A stretch of DNA of 41,263 nt from Holophagaceae bacterium (GTDB taxonomy: Bacteria > Acidobacteriota > Holophagae > Holophagales > Holophagaceae), in contig JANYIU010000046.1 in assembly GCA_025361955.1 (NCBI GenBank), forward strand, positions 1 to 41,263. Reading direction: 5' to 3'. Position 1 is the stretch's first letter; the number at the start of each line of letters is the position of its first letter. The position numbers and the translations under genes are program-made. The notes below the pieces were generated by a model, which saw only the letters and a program-made list of their open reading frames with translations, did no database searches and was not told the DNA's origin. Below are positions 30,906 to 41,263 of this stretch, piece after piece.

Positions 30906-31196
30906 GTGATCGTTTCTTTTGGTGATAAGTCAACGGAGGCGCTTTTCGATGGTGGTCCCAGAAAGGATTACAAGACCTTCCCGCCCAACTTGCTTGCGGT
31001 CGCTTTGCGAAAGCTCGATATGCTCAATGCTGCAGCCACTCTGGGAGATCTTCGTGCCCCTCCAGGCAATAGACTGGAACCCCTTGAAGGGAACTTGGCT
31101 GGGCTTTACAGCATTCGGGTGAACGACCAGTGGCGCGTCGTCTTTCGATGGGAAGGGTCAGACGCCTTTGACGTACGCATTAAGGATTACCACTGA
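30906..31196 (+). CDS. higB: HigB-like (RelE superfamily) toxin
   Basis: MIVSFGDKSTEALFDGG...LRKLDMLNAAATLGDLRAPPGNRLEPLEGNLAGLYSIRVNDQWRVVFRWEGSDAFDVRIKDYH is the canonical HigB pattern. Confidence 0.95.
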   Translation: MIVSFGDKSTEALFDGGPRKDYKTFPPNLLAVALRKLDMLNAAATLGDLRAPPGNRLEPLEGNLAGLYSIRVNDQWRVVFRWEGSDAFDVRIKDYH

Positions 31197-31210
31197 AAGT
31201 CAGGTGCCCC

Positions 31211-31498
31211 ATGATTCCAAGCCACCGCAACCCCACCCATCCTGGCGAGATCCTTCTTGAGGAGTTTCTGGTTCCTCTAGGGATCACCCAGGTTCTGCTT
31301 GCTTCTCACATCGGTGTTCCGGTCCAGCGAGTCAATGAGCTTGTTCGGGGTAAGCGTGGCGTCACCCCTGAAACGGCATGGCTGTTGAGCAAGGCCTTCA
31401 GCACCACACCCGAATTCTGGCTGAACCTTCAAGCCACCTGCGACCTCTACCAGAGTCGCCCCCAGCGCACGATCCATCCCTTGCGGAAGGTCGGGTAG
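31211..31498 (+). CDS. higA: HigA-like antitoxin (XRE)
   Basis: NPTHPGEILLEEFLVPLGITQVLLASHIGVPVQRVNELVRGKRGVTPETAWLLSKAFSTTPEFWLNLQATCDLY. Confidence 0.95.
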   Translation: MIPSHRNPTHPGEILLEEFLVPLGITQVLLASHIGVPVQRVNELVRGKRGVTPETAWLLSKAFSTTPEFWLNLQATCDLYQSRPQRTIHPLRKVG

Positions 31499-32292: not shown

Positions 32293-34971
32293 ATGACATA
32301 CTTGCCTCAAGGTACTCGAATGTGCGGCGCTACTTCTGTCCTATGGGCAAAGACAAGCCAGAATGCTGTGGAATGCTTCCATCCACTGCTGCTCCATCTC
32401 TTGGATGTAGCGTGTTGTGCAGAGGCGATCCTTGAGAGAGAACCCAGCACAACTCGGGTGAAACTGGCAGATATTCTTGGCCTATCCTGGTGCGATGCCA
32501 AGCCCTGGCTGTTGCTCATCATCGCCTGCCATGATTTGGGGAAGGCCTGTGCAGGGTTCCAGATCAAGTGGCCAGCCTCCAAGCCTAGATTGGTGGCTGC
32601 AGGGCTGTGCTTCCCCCCGGGCCTTGATCGACCCATCAACCATGCTTTTGTCAGTCAAGTTGTGTTGGTGGATCTTCTGGGTGAACAAGGCTGGCCTGAG
32701 GACTTGGCAAGAATGGTGGCCGACGCGGTGGGCTGCCATCACGGAGAGAGAGCAACACCAACAACTCTGAATGAATTGACACATGATCGGAGGGTTCAAG
32801 AACGTTCCTGGATCCAAGCCCGGCGGACCCTTTTTATCGCTTTGCTCGACTTCTTCCGGCCCATAAACGTCCCCGTCAAGCTTGCCCTCTCCGGCCCTGA
32901 TTTCATGCTGCTCTCTGGCCTTACAAGCTTTGCGGACTGGATTGGTTCCGACGAGACCCATTTCACCTTTGGCCAAGTTGATGAATGCGCGGATATCCCG
33001 GCTTGGTGGGCATCCCGACAACCCATTGCTGAAGCGTCCCTGGATGCCATCGGTTGGCTGCAGCGCGCCCCTTTGCTTCAGACTGAACGCACCTTTCAGG
33101 AAGTGTTTGGGTTCAGCCCCAGGCCACTCCAACAGAAAGTCGCGGAGGCTTTGGCTGCTGTGGACGGGCCGTGTGTTTTGCTGTTGGAAGCACCTATGGG
33201 CGAAGGCAAGACTGAAGCTGCTTTTTATGCTCATCTCGAACTCCAGCGCCGCTTTGGTCACCGTGGCCTTTACATTGCGCTGCCCACCAAGGCGACGGGC
33301 AATGCCATGTTTGGTCGCACCCTGGAATTCCTTAAGACGTTTTCACCCGATCGGAACCTGGACTTTCAGCTCCTCCATGGCGGCACTGCTCTCAACGACT
33401 CCTATCAAGAGTTGAAGCGCGCCACGATCCATGATCCTGAAGGCGAGGGGCGCGTGCGGGTGGGTGAATGGTTCACTCACCGCAAGCGGGCCCTACTTTC
33501 CGAATATGGCGTGGGCACTGTGGATCAGGCCCTCCTGCCGATCCTTCCAGTGCGGCACCAGTTTGTGCGCCTGTGGGGTCTGGCCAACCGCGTGGTGGTG
33601 TTTGACGAGATCCATGCCTATGACGCCTACACCGGCACCCTGCTCATTCACCTCATCCAATGGTTGGTGGCTCTTGGGGCTTCCGTTGTGCTCCTCTCAG
33701 CGACCCTGCCTCCCCGCATTCGGGCAAAGATCGTGGGTTCCCTGGGCAAGGCCATGCCAGATGAGCAGGCGCCTTATCCGCGTCTTACGGTGATCCAGCC
33801 AAGCGGCATTCAGCAGATGGGCTTTGAGGCTGATCCTTTGCGGCGCCAGCAGGTTGAAGTGGAACCGCTGTCATCCGATCTCTCTGCCATCCGATCCGCC
33901 CTCGATAGCCAGCTTCCAGAGGCCGGGTGCGCTCTGGCGCTGGTGAATACAGTGCAGCGAGCCCAGGATCTCTATAGCCTCTATTCCGAAGGTATTCCTT
34001 TGATGCGTGGCCGCCATCAGGTGGGAAAGCAACTGGAGGACGGCACAGAGATCCTGCTTTTCCACGCCCGATTTCCGGCTGACATTCGGCAAGCGAGAGA
34101 GGACAACGCTCTGGCTTCTTTTGGCAAGAAAAGTTTCAGAGAAGGCAGACGCATCCTCATCGCCACTCAGGTGGCCGAGCAGAGCTTGGATCTGGATTTC
34201 GACTTCATGGTGACAGACCTTGCCCCCATCGATCTGCTGCTGCAGCGCGCTGGGCGACTATGGAGGCATGATCGGGGTGGTCGTCCTTTGCCCCGTCCCC
34301 GCCTATTGGTTGCGGGCTTGGACGGTATAGAACCCAGTTCCTTCGGCGCACCCCTTTGGTGGGGGGCTGTGTACCGGGAGGATCTGCTACTGCGAACCTG
34401 GCTCTTGCTCAAAGAACATCCCCAAATGACCTTGCCAGATGACATAGACGGGTTTGTGCAGGCTGTTTATGAAGAAGAAGTGACTGTGCCGGAAGCCTTG
34501 CAGGAGCGGCTGGCGAAGGCCATCGAGAAGGAAGATGGCGCTTCTTATGCACACACAGGGAAAGCTCACGGGGCCATCATCGGCGACCCTGACAATGATT
34601 CCTGGAACGATCCTGCTCGATTCACCCAGGCCGACGAAGATGAGCCCGGTTTGCACCCAAGCCTTCGCGCCTTGACCCGATTGGGCGATCCATCAGTAAT
34701 GGTAGTGCCCATTCTCGCGGATGAAATCTTTGATCCCGCCCAGGCACCCAGCAGCGCCCAGGCCAAAGCGTGGTCCCTACGGGCACTGAGTATCAGCCAG
34801 AAGGCAGCCGTGGCCGAATGCCAAACCCAGGGAGTGCCCGATGGTTGGTCGCGTTCTCCTTTGCTGCGACATAGCTACGCTTTGCGTCTGGATAACGAGG
34901 GACGATGGCAGGAAAGCAAGAAGGTCCGCTTGGATCCAGCTCTAGGATTGGTTTTTGAAAGAAAGGAGTAG
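32293..34971 (+). CDS. cas3: CRISPR-associated helicase/nuclease Cas3 (type I-E)
   Basis: N-terminal HD domain (HPLLLHLLDVACCAEAIL, IACHDLGKACAGFQ). Helicase motifs LEAPMGEGKTEAAFYAHLE, VVFDEIHAYDAYTG, LLSATLPPRIR, LIATQVAEQSLDLDFDFMVTDLAPIDLLLQRAGRLWRH. Confidence 0.97.
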   Translation: MTYLPQGTRMCGATSVLWAKTSQNAVECFHPLLLHLLDVACCAEAILEREPSTTRVKLADILGLSWCDAKPWLLLIIACHDLGKACAGFQIKWPASKPRLVAAGLCFPPGLDRPINHAFVSQVVLVDLLGEQGWPEDLARMVADAVGCHHGERATPTTLNELTHDRRVQERSWIQARRTLFIALLDFFRPINVPVKLALSGPDFMLLSGLTSFADWIGSDETHFTFGQVDECADIPAWWASRQPIAEASLDAIGWLQRAPLLQTERTFQEVFGFSPRPLQQKVAEALAAVDGPCVLLLEAPMGEGKTEAAFYAHLELQRRFGHRGLYIALPTKATGNAMFGRTLEFLKTFSPDRNLDFQLLHGGTALNDSYQELKRATIHDPEGEGRVRVGEWFTHRKRALLSEYGVGTVDQALLPILPVRHQFVRLWGLANRVVVFDEIHAYDAYTGTLLIHLIQWLVALGASVVLLSATLPPRIRAKIVGSLGKAMPDEQAPYPRLTVIQPSGIQQMGFEADPLRRQQVEVEPLSSDLSAIRSALDSQLPEAGCALALVNTVQRAQDLYSLYSEGIPLMRGRHQVGKQLEDGTEILLFHARFPADIRQAREDNALASFGKKSFREGRRILIATQVAEQSLDLDFDFMVTDLAPIDLLLQRAGRLWRHDRGGRPLPRPRLLVAGLDGIEPSSFGAPLWWGAVYREDLLLRTWLLLKEHPQMTLPDDIDGFVQAVYEEEVTVPEALQERLAKAIEKEDGASYAHTGKAHGAIIGDPDNDSWNDPARFTQADEDEPGLHPSLRALTRLGDPSVMVVPILADEIFDPAQAPSSAQAKAWSLRALSISQKAAVAECQTQGVPDGWSRSPLLRHSYALRLDNEGRWQESKKVRLDPALGLVFERKE

Positions 34972-35087
34972 TGGACACGGCGGTGAATAAAAGCAGAGTC
35001 GAAGTTCACTGTTGATGGTGGTAGCCACCTACCGCGAGGTCGCCACTACCAAGCCTACAGTGAGGGGGTCTCCGGCACTAAGACACT

Positions 35088-35178
35088 CACAACATCCCCG
35101 GTGACCCGGGGAATATTTCGAAAACCGCTGACCTGAGTCCTCCAGTAATCGGACCATCCCCAGTATTTTGAGGAAAAC
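35088..35178 (-). ncRNA. Putative crRNA-like regulatory RNA (CreR/CreA-type): psi-repeat 1 (35150-35178), pseudo-spacer (35117-35149), psi-repeat 2 (35088-35116)
   Basis: Minus strand: GTTTTCCTCAAAATACTGGGGATGGTCCG / ATTACTGGAGGACTCAGGTCAGCGGTTTTCGAA / ATATTCCCCGGGTCACCGGGGATGTTGTG. Compared with the array repeat CCGTTCCCCGCACACGCGGGGATGATCCG, both psi-repeats match 17/29. The 3' 12 nt of psi-repeat 1 match 11/12. Period is 62 nt versus 61 nt in the array. Hairpins are preserved. Confidence 0.75.
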
Positions 35179-35203
35179 CCAGGATAGGACGACTGCGAAA
35201 AAA

Positions 35204-35238
35204 AAACTAGCCCATGCCCTGAGACCTCCTATAATCTT
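35204..35238 (-). promoter_or_regulatory. Predicted target of the crRNA-like RNA over the cas8e -10 element: PAM AAG (35236-35238) followed by protospacer ATTATAGGAGGTCTCAGGGCATGGG...
   Basis: The pseudo-spacer matches 17 of the first 21 target positions (mismatches at 5, 6, 12, 19). The target includes TATAAT (35230-35235 on the plus strand). Confidence 0.72.
35230..35235 (+). promoter_or_regulatory. Predicted -10 box (TATAAT) of the cas8e promoter
   Basis: Exact consensus TATAAT 50 bp upstream of the cas8e ATG. No good -35 is evident. Confidence 0.55.
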
Positions 35239-35284
35239 AGGTTGTAGATAGGACGACTTGAAATCAAAAACATAAGGATTCCTG

Positions 35285-36808
35285 ATGAGCCGATTCAATC
35301 TAATTGATGAGCCGTGGATCCCTCTGCGCCTCCCTGATGGGGGCCGCATTGAATTGGGCATCCGGGACACCCTTCTGCGCGCCTGGGAAATTGCAGCCAT
35401 TGAGGATCCCTCCCCGTTGGTGGTGTCGGCCCTTCATCGCTTTCTTCTGGCCGTGCTATATAGGGCTCTGGAGGGGCCCTGTGATATCACAGAGGCCAAA
35501 ATCCTCTTCGAGGAAAGGCTGCCAGCAGAGAAGATCAGCGCCTACCTAGGAAAGTGGCGGGATCGATTCTGGCTCTTCGACGAGGTGTTCCCCTTCAGTC
35601 AGATTCCATCATTTGAACCCAAAATTTGGCGTTCGTGGACGGTACTGGCGGCAGAGCACAATGCTGACAACGCGAAGGTTCTCTTCGACCACATTGATGT
35701 GCAGGAACCCGGTGTAATTGATGAAGCAGTCGCAACCCGCTGGCTGCTGGCGACACAAACCTTTGCTGTGAGTTGTGGGAAAAGTGAACTCTCTCATACC
35801 GGTACAGCGCCGTCGGCCACTGCCGCTCTGGTCATCCCGCTTGGGAAGAATCTTCAGGACACTCTTCTGATGTCACTGATCCCCCAAAATCGCCAGATTC
35901 TGGATGGAGATAGGCCACTGTGGGAACGTCCGCCAGAGGGAGTTGCGTCCCTGAAAGAAGGGAGAGAGCGCAGTGCAATAGGGCTCGCTGACCGGTATAC
36001 TTGGCGAACCCGATCCATTCGATTTAGAGATGACTGCACCGGTATCACCCAACTCGCTTTTGCATCTGGAGTCAATTGCTCCGCAATGGATCAGGTGGAT
36101 CCAATGCAGGCCTACCGCATTGACGAAAAGCGCGGACGACTCCCCTTACAATTTCGGGACAGAGGTATTTGGCGAGACTTCGATTCATTGCTGCCAGACA
36201 AGGAGAAGCTGTCTCCGCGCTCACTTGAACACGCGCTTTCGTTGGCCCAAGATCACCAAGATCGATTTCCCACCTCGGTTTTGGTGCTTGGGCAGAGCAA
36301 CGACAAGGCCAAGATCGAGTTCTGGCGCATGGAGCGGTTCACTTTGCCGACTGCACTTGCTGGAGACCGCTGCATCCGGGAGGACATTCATCGGTTCCTT
36401 GATCGGGCGGAAACCAGCCAGAAGGCGTTATGGTCTGCTTGCAACACCTTTGCTCGCTTTGTGATTGCACGGGGGGAACGAACACCAGACGGAAAGGATA
36501 CCAAAGCCTTCTTGGCTCAGATGCCCTGCATCCCGGTCTACTGGACCGCCCTTGAAGCCGCATTCCACGTCATCCTCCAGGCTTACACCTTGGACCAGGA
36601 TCCCTATGCAATTGAGCAGGATTGGGTCATCGCCGTGCGTGATGCCCTTCGCAATGCCTGGGACCTGCACCGGAGGACTGCCATATCGGGTGACGCCTGG
36701 ACTATTCGGGCCCTGGTGAAGGCCGATGGGGCTGTGGCGATGGAACTCAAGAAACTCGGAGTAGTCATCAAGGAATTCAACGACTTTCTGGCAAAGGAGG
36801 GGGCATGA
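35285..36808 (+). CDS. casA: Type I-E Cascade large subunit Cas8e/Cse1
   Basis: N-terminus MSRFNLIDEPWIPLRLPDGGRIELGIRDTLLRAWEIAAIEDPSPLVVSALHRFLLAVLYRAL is canonical Cse1. Confidence 0.96.
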   Translation: MSRFNLIDEPWIPLRLPDGGRIELGIRDTLLRAWEIAAIEDPSPLVVSALHRFLLAVLYRALEGPCDITEAKILFEERLPAEKISAYLGKWRDRFWLFDEVFPFSQIPSFEPKIWRSWTVLAAEHNADNAKVLFDHIDVQEPGVIDEAVATRWLLATQTFAVSCGKSELSHTGTAPSATAALVIPLGKNLQDTLLMSLIPQNRQILDGDRPLWERPPEGVASLKEGRERSAIGLADRYTWRTRSIRFRDDCTGITQLAFASGVNCSAMDQVDPMQAYRIDEKRGRLPLQFRDRGIWRDFDSLLPDKEKLSPRSLEHALSLAQDHQDRFPTSVLVLGQSNDKAKIEFWRMERFTLPTALAGDRCIREDIHRFLDRAETSQKALWSACNTFARFVIARGERTPDGKDTKAFLAQMPCIPVYWTALEAAFHVILQAYTLDQDPYAIEQDWVIAVRDALRNAWDLHRRTAISGDAWTIRALVKADGAVAMELKKLGVVIKEFNDFLAKEGA

Positions 36809-37326
36809 GTGCGTTCATCGAGTGGCTGGAAAGCCTGAATAAAAAGGACACCAAGGTGCGGGCTGTGCTGAAGCGCAGCCTTGCCTTCGACCCAGGAACC
36901 CATGTTCCCGCCTACCCCTATGTGGAACCATTTCTTCAGGGAGCCGAATGGCCCTGGCGCCGTACGGTGCATTACTTGGTGGCGGGCCTGTGGGCCGCCC
37001 ATTGGCGGGAAGGACGCGAGAGAACTGGCATACCGTTGGGCAGGGCCGCAGCTATCCATCAAGTCAGCAGTGGCTCAATCAGTACGGAAAACCGGTTTAT
37101 CACTCTGCTCGATGCTGATGAAGACCAGCTTCCCCATCGGTTGCGCCAGATAGCTGCTCTCTTGAAAGAGCAGCCGCTAGATTTCGAGCATCTCCTGGTA
37201 GGTCTTCTGCGCTGGAATGACGACAGTAAGCGGACTCAAAACGATTGGGCGCGTGACTTCTACCGCAACATCCGCGCTGAAAATGGCACCGAATCTGAAA
37301 CCCCTACAACCGAGGAAAAACTCTGA
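36805..37326 (+). CDS. casB: Type I-E Cascade small subunit Cse2/CasB
   Basis: Position in the operon, ATGA overlap, and Cse2-like [31 protein letters not shown]...[47 protein letters not shown]. Confidence 0.95.
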
Positions 37327-38486
37327 TGAGAACCCTGATCGAGATCCACGCCCTTCAGAACTTCGCGCCCTCCAACCTGAACCGAGACGATACCGGCGCT
37401 CCCAAGGATGCCTTCTTTGGTGGAACCCGCCGCGCCCGCATCAGCAGCCAATGTCTCAAGCGGGCTGTGCGCCAGTATTTCGGTTCCCTGGTGGAGCAGG
37501 GCGCCCTTGGTAAAGCGGATGTGGCTTCTCGTACCAAGCGGATTCTGGACACTCTCACTGAATTCCTGGTGGGGAAGGGGCGGGCCAAAGAGGATGCCGA
37601 ACAAAAGGCTCGCCTGGCTTTGGCCGCCATGGAACTCAATGTGAAGGAGGATGGCAAGAGCGAATATCTGCTTTTCCTTGGTCAGCGTGAAATCGCAGGA
37701 ATTGCTGAGATCATCCACGAAAAGTGGGACTCCATTTTCGCTTCCGAAGTGGCTCCAGTTGAGGGAAAGAAGTCGGGAAAGGCGAAGAAGCAAGCCGCCA
37801 GTGTCGCGGACCCTGAACTGAAGAAGGCCCTGGATAAGGTCTTCAATGGTGGCAAGGCGCTGGATGTGGCTCTCTTCGGGCGCATGCTGGCCGATATGCC
37901 CCAAAAAAACCAGAATGCCGCATGCCAGGTTGCCCATGCACTTTCCACCCACGCAGTAGACCGGGAATTCGACTTTTACACGGCTGTGGATGACCTCAAA
38001 CCTGAGGACACGGCGGGAGCCGACATGATGGGTACCGTGGAGTTCAATTCCGCTTGCTTCTACCGCTATGCGGTGGTGGATTGGGCCAAGCTGGTGGAGA
38101 ACCTCCAGGGGGACAAGGAGCTGGCTGAGAAGGGGCTGCGCGCCTTCCTGGAAGGATTCGTTGTGAGTGAACCCACGGGCAAACAGAACACTTTCGCCGC
38201 CCACAATCCGCCGGAATTCGTGGCGATCTCTGTTCGCCACAACACGGCTCCACGCAATCTGGCCAATGCTTTCGAGACTGCACTCCGGGCTAAGAAGGGC
38301 GAATCCATCACGCTCCTTTCTGCCGACAGGCTGGTGGATAAGGCCAAGAAACTCCAAACCGCCTATGGCGGCGACGGACAGACCTACGTGTTGAATCTCG
38401 TGGATGCCAAGATCGACAATTTCGGAAAGGCAGAGGAATCCCTGGATGCCCTGCTCAACAAATCTTTGAGTCTCGTGAGGGTCTGA
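37326..38486 (+). CDS. casC: Type I-E Cas7e/Cse4/CasC
   Basis: [70 protein letters not shown]. Confidence 0.97.
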
Positions 38487-39193
38487 TGGCTACGCTGCTT
38501 CTGCGTCTGGTGGGCCCCATGCAGTCCTGGGGTACCACCAGCCGCTTTGATCAACGCGATACCGGGAAGGAACCCAGCAAGTCGGGTGTGAGCGGCCTTC
38601 TGGCCGCTGCCCTTGGCATCGATCGGGGCAACTGGGCTGACTTGGAGCCACTGACGCATCTGGCCATGGCCGTGCGCCATGATCGGCCGGGATTGCCAAA
38701 GCACGACTACCAGACCGTCGGGTGTGCAAGGCAGGACACGATCATCCGGGCTGATGGTTCCCAGGCTAAGGATGGCGGTGTTGTGTCCACCCGCCACTAT
38801 CTGGCTGATGCTGCCTTCCTGGTGGGATTGGAAAGCCCGGATGTAGATCTTCTCGAACGCCTTCATGGCGCCCTCCAGGATCCTGTTTGGCTCCTGGCCT
38901 TGGGGCGCAAATCCTATCTTCCCGCCGAGCCTCTATGGTTACCGGATAGCCAGAATCCCATCCAGGGCGCCCCCTTGCGCCAGGTCATGGAACACCAACC
39001 GTGGCTTGCCACTCGACGAATGCAAGAGCAGGCGCCAGTGAAGCTGCTTATGTCCATGGAATCCTCGGATAGTTCAGGTGCCATGCGCATGGATCAGCCA
39101 ATCTCTTCCTTTGCCGAGCGTCGTTTTGGCGCACGCTTCGTTCATTCTGAATGGATCCCTTTTTCTGGTGGGGTGGCTGATGTTCCTGCATAG
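38486..39193 (+). CDS. casD: Type I-E Cas5e/CasD
   Basis: [47 protein letters not shown]. Confidence 0.97.
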   Translation: MATLLLRLVGPMQSWGTTSRFDQRDTGKEPSKSGVSGLLAAALGIDRGNWADLEPLTHLAMAVRHDRPGLPKHDYQTVGCARQDTIIRADGSQAKDGGVVSTRHYLADAAFLVGLESPDVDLLERLHGALQDPVWLLALGRKSYLPAEPLWLPDSQNPIQGAPLRQVMEHQPWLATRRMQEQAPVKLLMSMESSDSSGAMRMDQPISSFAERRFGARFVHSEWIPFSGGVADVPA

Positions 39194-39856
39194 GCTCCAC
39201 CTCAACCTGCGCTGTCGGGAGGTCCGTCGCGATCTGGCGGACCCCTACCAGCTCCACGCTACGCTTTGTCGGGCCTTTAGCCCTGAGGATAAGAGATGCT
39301 TGCCGGGTGCCTTCCTATGGCGATTGGAGCCGGAAACAGACGCTTCCAGCGCTCCACGCATCCTGATTCAGAGCCGCGAAATCCCAGACTGGCCCAGGAT
39401 CAATCTCTCCAACTGGTTGGAGCGGGACCCCGACCCCGCTGTGAATTTAGTTGAACGATTGAAAATGGATGCAATGAGAGCGGGCCAGCGCTATCGCTTT
39501 CGCCTCCGAGCCAATCCTGCTACGTCCAAAAATGGAAAGCGGCTGGGGCTCCTGAAATTGGAGGACCAGGAAGCATGGCTCCTGCGAAAGGGTCAGAAGC
39601 AGCATGGATTCACTTTGCCGTGTCTGACCGCCTTTGATGCCTACGAAGGCACGGAAGCCCGCGTAGATGTGCGTATCTCCCAGGAGCAGATGCTTCGTGC
39701 GCGCCAGCATGACGGCAACGGCATCCGGGTCTTCTCCGTGCTCTTTGACGGAACCCTGGAAGTCACGGAACCCGATGCCTTTAGGGTGGCCCTGACAAGT
39801 GGCATTGGGCATGGCAAGGCCCTGGGCCTGGGGCTACTCTCCGTGATACCCGTGTC

Positions 39857-39860
<4 letters not shown>
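39180..39860 (+). CDS. casE: Type I-E Cas6e/CasE crRNA endoribonuclease
   Basis: MFLHRLHLNLRCREVRRDLADPYQLHATLCRAF; C-terminal ALTSGIGHGKALGLGLLSVIPVS glycine-rich loop. Start moved from the ORF-track start (39078) to ATG 39180. Confidence 0.95.
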
Positions 39861-41104
<1,244 letters not shown>

Positions 41105-41121: not shown

Positions 41122-41263
41122 CCGTTCCCCGCACACGCGGGGATGATCCGCTGGTCTAATGCTGGGGCTATTGACAATACCACCGTTCCCCGCACACGCG
41201 GGGATGATCCGTTCACCGGCTGGAGCATAAGCGGTTATGGTTGCCGTTCCCCGCACACGCGGG
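41122..41263 (+). CRISPR. Type I-E CRISPR array (start only, runs off the window): 29-bp repeat CCGTTCCCCGCACACGCGGGGATGATCCG, 32-bp spacers
   Basis: Repeats at 41122-41150, 41183-41211 and 41244-41263 (truncated). Spacers at 41151-41182 and 41212-41243. Exact 61-bp period. Confidence 0.98.

Follow-up and report, generated by a model that had tools for sequence, protein, structure and literature searches.

The 41,263-nucleotide (nt) contig JANYIU010000046.1 of a Holophagaceae bacterium (assembly GCA_025361955.1), analysed over its whole length and referred to here as the window, carries a complete type I-E operon of clustered regularly interspaced short palindromic repeats (CRISPR) and cas genes. 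It comprises cas3, cse1, cse2, cas7, cas5, cas6e, cas1 and cas2, each recognised by Pfam matches, together with an array of 29-nt repeats and 32-nt spacers. Between cas3 and cas8e (cse1) lies a two-repeat mini-CRISPR on the minus strand, spanning 35178-35088, and close to it a site that resembles its single spacer and is flanked by a protospacer-adjacent motif (PAM). This mini-CRISPR is very probably a creR gene, the RNA of which would guide Cascade to repress its own operon. The region contains the following features:

34972 to 35284: intergenic region between cas3 and cas8e, 313 nt, which holds both the mini-CRISPR and its target
35150 to 35178, minus strand: pseudo-repeat 1, GTTTTCCTCAAAATACTGGGGATGGTCCG, 17/29 identical to the array repeat (10/21 over its first 21 nt, 7/8 over the handle)
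Last 8 nt of pseudo-repeat 1, minus strand: predicted 5' handle, ATGGTCCG, 7/8 identical to the array repeat
35117 to 35149, minus strand: pseudo-spacer or guide, 33 nt between the aligned repeats, its first 32 nt being ATTACTGGAGGACTCAGGTCAGCGGTTTTCGA
35088 to 35116, minus strand: pseudo-repeat 2, ATATTCCCCGGGTCACCGGGGATGTTGTG, 17/29 identical to the array repeat, with a predicted Cas6e hairpin and 3' handle
35204 to 35235, minus strand: target protospacer in the cas8e promoter region, identical to the guide at 17/21, 19/25 and 20/32 positions
35236 to 35238, minus strand: AAG PAM of the target, read directly from the sequence
35230 to 35235, plus strand: TATAAT, putative -10 element of cas8e, a perfect hexamer inside the protospacer

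The initial annotation of this locus had called the guide a pseudo-spacer, a label that is incomplete: two degenerate 29-nt repeats, 33 nt apart, flank the guide, which compares with 32 nt for the array spacers. These repeats have decayed in different parts. Pseudo-repeat 1 has the better-preserved handle, and pseudo-repeat 2 has the better-preserved hairpin and first 21 nt (12/21 identical to the array repeat over the first 21 nt and 5/8 over the last 8 nt). The same split between handle and hairpin is reported for creA genes with two repeats (PMC8501985). For pseudo-repeat 2, the predicted folding energy of the hairpin is -15.7 kcal/mol (z -3.0), versus -14.5 kcal/mol for the true repeat, and the last stem pair of this hairpin is flipped from C-G to G-C. 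Judged from sequence and predicted folding, the pseudo-repeats keep what processing is predicted to need, an 8-nt handle and a Cas6e-type hairpin. Beyond the real array, the mini-CRISPR is the only unit in the window that combines a handle end identical at 11 or more of 12 positions with an intact stem of 6 base pairs. Within it, the guide is preceded on its 5' side by CCG, a PAM that is expected to abolish Cascade binding and was used for this in PMC5904413, so that the mini-CRISPR should not target itself. An Rfam search returned only a sub-threshold chance match to a small nucleolar RNA.

The placement of the protospacer (35235-35204 read along the minus strand), its AAG (35238-35236) and the TATAAT hexamer (35230-35235) in the initial annotation agrees with the DNA, and its counts of 19/25 and 17/21 identical positions were reproduced on recounting (20/32 overall). 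It had placed mismatches at positions 5, 6, 12 and 19 and in the PAM-distal part, which is correct; the full list is 5, 6, 12, 19, 22, 23, 26 and 28-32, and the paired stretches are 1-4, 7-11 and 13-18. AAG is the optimal type I-E PAM of Escherichia coli (PMC5904413). The two array spacers match nothing elsewhere in the window, and the PAM of this particular system is therefore not derivable from them.

The match between guide and promoter region is not due to chance. In 5000 trials in which both the guide and the intergenic region were shuffled, 17/21 beside AAG never occurred, 17/21 irrespective of the PAM occurred once and 19/25 never. None of 2000 shuffled guides compared with the whole window reached 17/21 with AAG, and none of 3000 real 32-mers taken from the window reached 17/21 in the intergenic region 34972-35284. 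The next-best match of the guide in the window is 14/21. A search of the 3.06-Mb assembly for AAG followed by guide bases 1-15, with at most three mismatches allowed, gave only the guide locus and this target.

The mini-CRISPR unit was found neither in any genome searched nor in viral contigs. Since none of these genomes carries it, pairing was examined across the class and not through covariation of this guide and target. An initial scan, made without position weighting, sought handle-like ends and, behind them, guides that match a nearby site; it was flooded by array repeats. Stricter scans, in which arrays were masked and a hairpin was required, removed this noise. The survey covered 156 loci, the window included, and the strict scan yielded 37 non-array candidate guides of this shape. 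Four further independent guide/promoter pairs came to light, in Streptantibioticus (L040), Bifidobacterium (L063), Tessaracoccus (L067) and a Chloroflexi metagenome-assembled genome (L018), the first two of them from the earlier scan without position weighting. In the window, the Chloroflexi locus and Tessaracoccus, a nearby site flanked by AAG or AAC is paired with the guide at 14 of 15 positions, the best of 740 shuffled guides reaching 13. When only the 700 nt upstream of cas8e were considered, the window gave the only match. The target lies on the same strand as the CreR handle and 74-120 nt upstream of it in the window, the Chloroflexi locus, Tessaracoccus and Streptantibioticus.

The distribution of mismatches in these pairs is informative about how the guides may be used. 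Position 18 is not read by type I Cascade, as follows from its 6-nt period. Positions 6 and 12 have been shown not to matter in CreA (PMC8501985). The initial annotation had already noted that 6 and 12 are flipped-out positions, a claim that holds, and the bias extends to 18 and across pairs. Four pairs were selected with no weighting by position (the window, Streptantibioticus, Bifidobacterium and Tessaracoccus); of their 14 mismatches within positions 1-18, 9 fall at 6, 12 or 18, where 2.3 are expected (P 7.5e-6). With the window left out, the figure is 7 of 11 (P 8.6e-5). Mismatches at these positions are what would be expected if Cascade reads the pairing, and their clustering argues against a duplication relic, which would not show it.

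Further observations were made at the surveyed loci. The PAM is AAC in all three actinobacterial pairs and AAG in the window and the Chloroflexi locus. The Chloroflexi guide TAGCGCGCTCT (L018 3963-4150) matches sites on both of its sides, AAG-TAGCGCGCTCTTGCGAGT upstream and ATG-TAGCGCGCT downstream and nearer cas3, and thus possibly has two target sites. In Aeromicrobium (L061 2805-2957), a near-canonical repeat pair lies upstream of cas3, and positions 1-5 and 7-12 of its guide match a site flanked by AAG; this is probably another CreR, one with a shorter match.

The name CreR, for cas-regulating RNA, reportedly comes from Liu and colleagues (Cell Host Microbe, 2023, doi 10.1016/j.chom.2023.08.005). 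As described in three reviews, CreR comprises mini-CRISPR RNAs with limited complementarity to cas promoters, by which they repress the cas genes of types I-B, I-E and V-A; they compete with CRISPR RNAs (crRNAs) and are proposed to sense crRNA abundance and anti-CRISPRs (PMC13131331, PMC12948488, PMC12737573). The class, type I-E included, is already published, and the locus described here is a new example of a mechanism that is not new. In the proposed pathway, the transcript of the mini-CRISPR would be processed by Cas6e into a crRNA-like RNA with the handle AUGGUCCG, a 33-nt guide and a 3' hairpin, which would load into the cognate type I-E Cascade. The loaded complex would bind the AAG-flanked protospacer over the -10 element of cas8e through some 18 PAM-proximal positions and would thereby block transcription of cas8e-cse2-cas7-cas5-cas6e-cas1-cas2. 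By analogy with the class, CreR would compete with array crRNAs for Cascade, and a shortage or inhibition of Cascade would lead to derepression. In E. coli, AAG and a 5-nt seed suffice for Cascade binding, and a protospacer mismatched at positions 19-32 is bound robustly with neither interference nor priming detected (PMC5904413). From these data and the pairing at 1-4, 7-11 and 13-18, binding without Cas3 action is to be expected: mismatches past position 18 would keep the R-loop short, and Cas3 would not be licensed to cut the chromosome.

Several points weigh against self-repression by CreR. Position 5, a seed position, is mismatched, and the mismatches through position 23 include no wobble pair. 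The cas8e promoter is inferred from TATAAT alone and is therefore putative: the best -35 element for this hexamer matches at only 3/6 positions, and a sigma-70 scan found no full consensus in the cas8e promoter region. The hairpin of pseudo-repeat 1 is weak (-6.8 kcal/mol), the flip bias of the window taken alone is weak as well (2/3, P 0.056), and no close relative retains the mini-CRISPR, hence the absence of conservation or covariation for this pair. Moreover, work cited in PMC5904413 reports that six PAM-distal mismatches greatly reduce promoter repression by E. coli Cascade. Two proposals of the initial annotation are affected. Cascade-guided pairing is favoured by the comparative data and is burdened by the seed mismatch at position 5 and by a promoter recognised from TATAAT with no good -35. 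Avoidance of Cas3 through weak PAM-distal pairing fits the published binding without Cas3 action, but the same PAM-distal mismatches, going by that citation, could also weaken repression. An A-tract (35198-35206) lies just upstream of TATAAT, and a terminator scan found nothing.

In the four loci that have the target 74-120 nt ahead of the CreR handle, it falls where a promoter of CreR itself would be expected, and repression might therefore include the guide. It is a tentative and rather doubtful idea that the target is a divergent promoter used in both directions, with -10 elements that overlap, at which CreR-Cascade would silence both its own guide and the Cascade genes, with cas3, set apart by the 313-nt region, transcribed separately and remaining available. 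If this were true, Cascade would be held at a set point and the nuclease kept ready.

The similarity between guide and target could also be the vestige of a local tandem duplication, inherited and not used as a guide. A direct repeat, GATAGGACGACT, occurs on the plus strand at 35183-35207 and 35247-35271 (12 exact positions, 20/25 overall), co-linear with guide and target. This second similarity in the same order (35183/35247) is what a duplication would produce, and aligning the two segments with gaps gives a score of 49.5, compared with 44.8 for the best of 500 shuffles. Nevertheless, a duplication leaves unexplained why two pseudo-repeats are spaced as for a crRNA and retain an intact hairpin and a handle end identical at 11/12 positions, and why one edge of the similarity coincides exactly with the repeat junction, with AAG beside the target and CCG in the unit; nor does it account for an arrangement shared by unrelated lineages with position-specific mismatches. 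As a full explanation it is highly unlikely. A duplication may well have been the origin of the guide, which is compatible with CreR, and the co-linear similarity suggests that the guide was born by duplication of a promoter segment; GATAGGACGACT may record this event or may be a shared operator.

It is extremely improbable that the unit is a functionless, decayed orphan CRISPR, the RNA of which is not made or not loaded. Such decay would be in keeping with the weak hairpin of pseudo-repeat 1, with the lack of a clear promoter for the mini-CRISPR and with its absence from all relatives examined, but the parts that have been preserved, the handle and the 3' hairpin, are those a crRNA needs, and the guide matches the promoter region next to it, correct PAM included, far better than chance would allow. 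We give next to no credence to a CreTA-like addiction module, in which a CreA antitoxin RNA represses a minimal toxin located between the target and cas8e. CreTA modules are indeed located among cas genes and rely on an RNA of this kind (PMC8501985, PMC9458426), and a five-codon frame (TTG-AAA-TCA-AAA-ACA-TAA) follows the promoter. However, the stretch from the target to cas8e contains no ATG or GTG, cas8e itself is the first real gene, and the tiny TTG frame lacks the doubled rare codons (AGA-AGA, AUA-AUA) of known CreT RNAs; the guide does not match the HigBA-like pair at 30906-31498. Membership in CreTA was rejected, as a toxin frame behind the targeted promoter is missing.

Among known systems, the locus resembles CreR in its single spacer between two repeats that are degenerate with respect to the co-occurring array (17/29 each), in the retention of handles and of a stem for Cas6, as judged by sequence and predicted folding, and in partial complementarity, next to a valid PAM, to the region preceding a cas gene (17/21, AAG). 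Unlike CreR as the reviews describe it, the unit lies inside the operon, in the 313-nt cas3-cas8e region, and can control only the genes after cas3. With CreA of the type I-B CreTA system (PMC8501985) it shares two divergently decayed repeats, an 8-nt 5' handle and partial promoter pairing with a PAM, and in both cases Cascade would be the repressor, as established for CreA and proposed here. CreA, however, represses a small RNA toxin, whereas the first gene behind the target here is cas8e, and CreA seed pairing covers positions 1-5 and 7-11, versus 1-4, 7-11 and 13-18 here. A natural non-array RNA that guides an effector to its own promoter, as proposed for this locus, is also found in SpyCas9 autorepression, which is relieved by anti-CRISPRs and differs in belonging to Class 2 and in using a guide derived from the trans-activating crRNA (tracrRNA) with no mini-CRISPR. 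This guide is tracr-L. SpyCas9 autorepression is mentioned in PMC13131331.

Only Cascade genes and cas1-cas2 lie behind the targeted promoter, with cas3 excluded. The operon and its array are arranged as follows:

32293 to 34971, plus strand: cas3, with Cas3_HD, DEAD and Cas3_C matches, upstream of the mini-CRISPR and not behind the target promoter
35285 to 36808, plus strand: cas8e (cse1), Pfam CRISPR_Cse1 (E 5.8e-89), the first gene behind the target
36805 to 41099, plus strand: cse2, cas7, cas5, cas6e, cas1 and cas2, with a Pfam match for each
41122 to 41263, plus strand: canonical CRISPR array with repeat CCGTTCCCCGCACACGCGGGGATGATCCG and a 61-nt period, cut by the contig end

The closest solved relatives of the cas8e product are CasA/Cse1 of entries 4f3e, 4an8 and 4ej3, and this cas8e is the only cse1 found in the assembly. 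Its nearest relatives are 61-63% identical. A plasmid search gave only remote relatives (<60% identical). Among the family genomes searched, only one (G009, 61%) carries a close Cas8e, and the other near relatives belong mostly to Proteobacteria, a distribution that suggests horizontal transfer of the operon. In most of these relatives the cas3-cas8e gap is about 5 nt and in two about 70 nt, versus 313 nt in the window, and as far as sampled the long region appears peculiar to this lineage. In 77 family genomes, no homologous intergenic region was found beyond the organism's own genome, apart from a single partial match of 39 nt, in the hairpin portion.

This hairpin, long and imperfect, lies at about 35005-35065, between the convergent ends of cas3 and the mini-CRISPR. 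It has no T-run and was rejected as a bidirectional terminator for this reason. The 39-nt stretch of the other family genome (G039:C1:1014319-1014357) is 82% similar to it, and no convincing second copy was found in its own genome. Upstream of cas3, genes for a HigB-like toxin and a HigA-like antitoxin lie at 30906-31498 of the window.

In all, this is very probably an intact type I-E CreR locus, and a single short intergenic region displays its guide, target, PAM and processing signals. Mismatches at positions 6, 12 and 18 provide a simple sequence test, which tells used guides from duplication relics and for which any type I genome can be scanned. Finally, the position of the unit inside the operon prompts the question of whether Cascade is set separately from Cas3.
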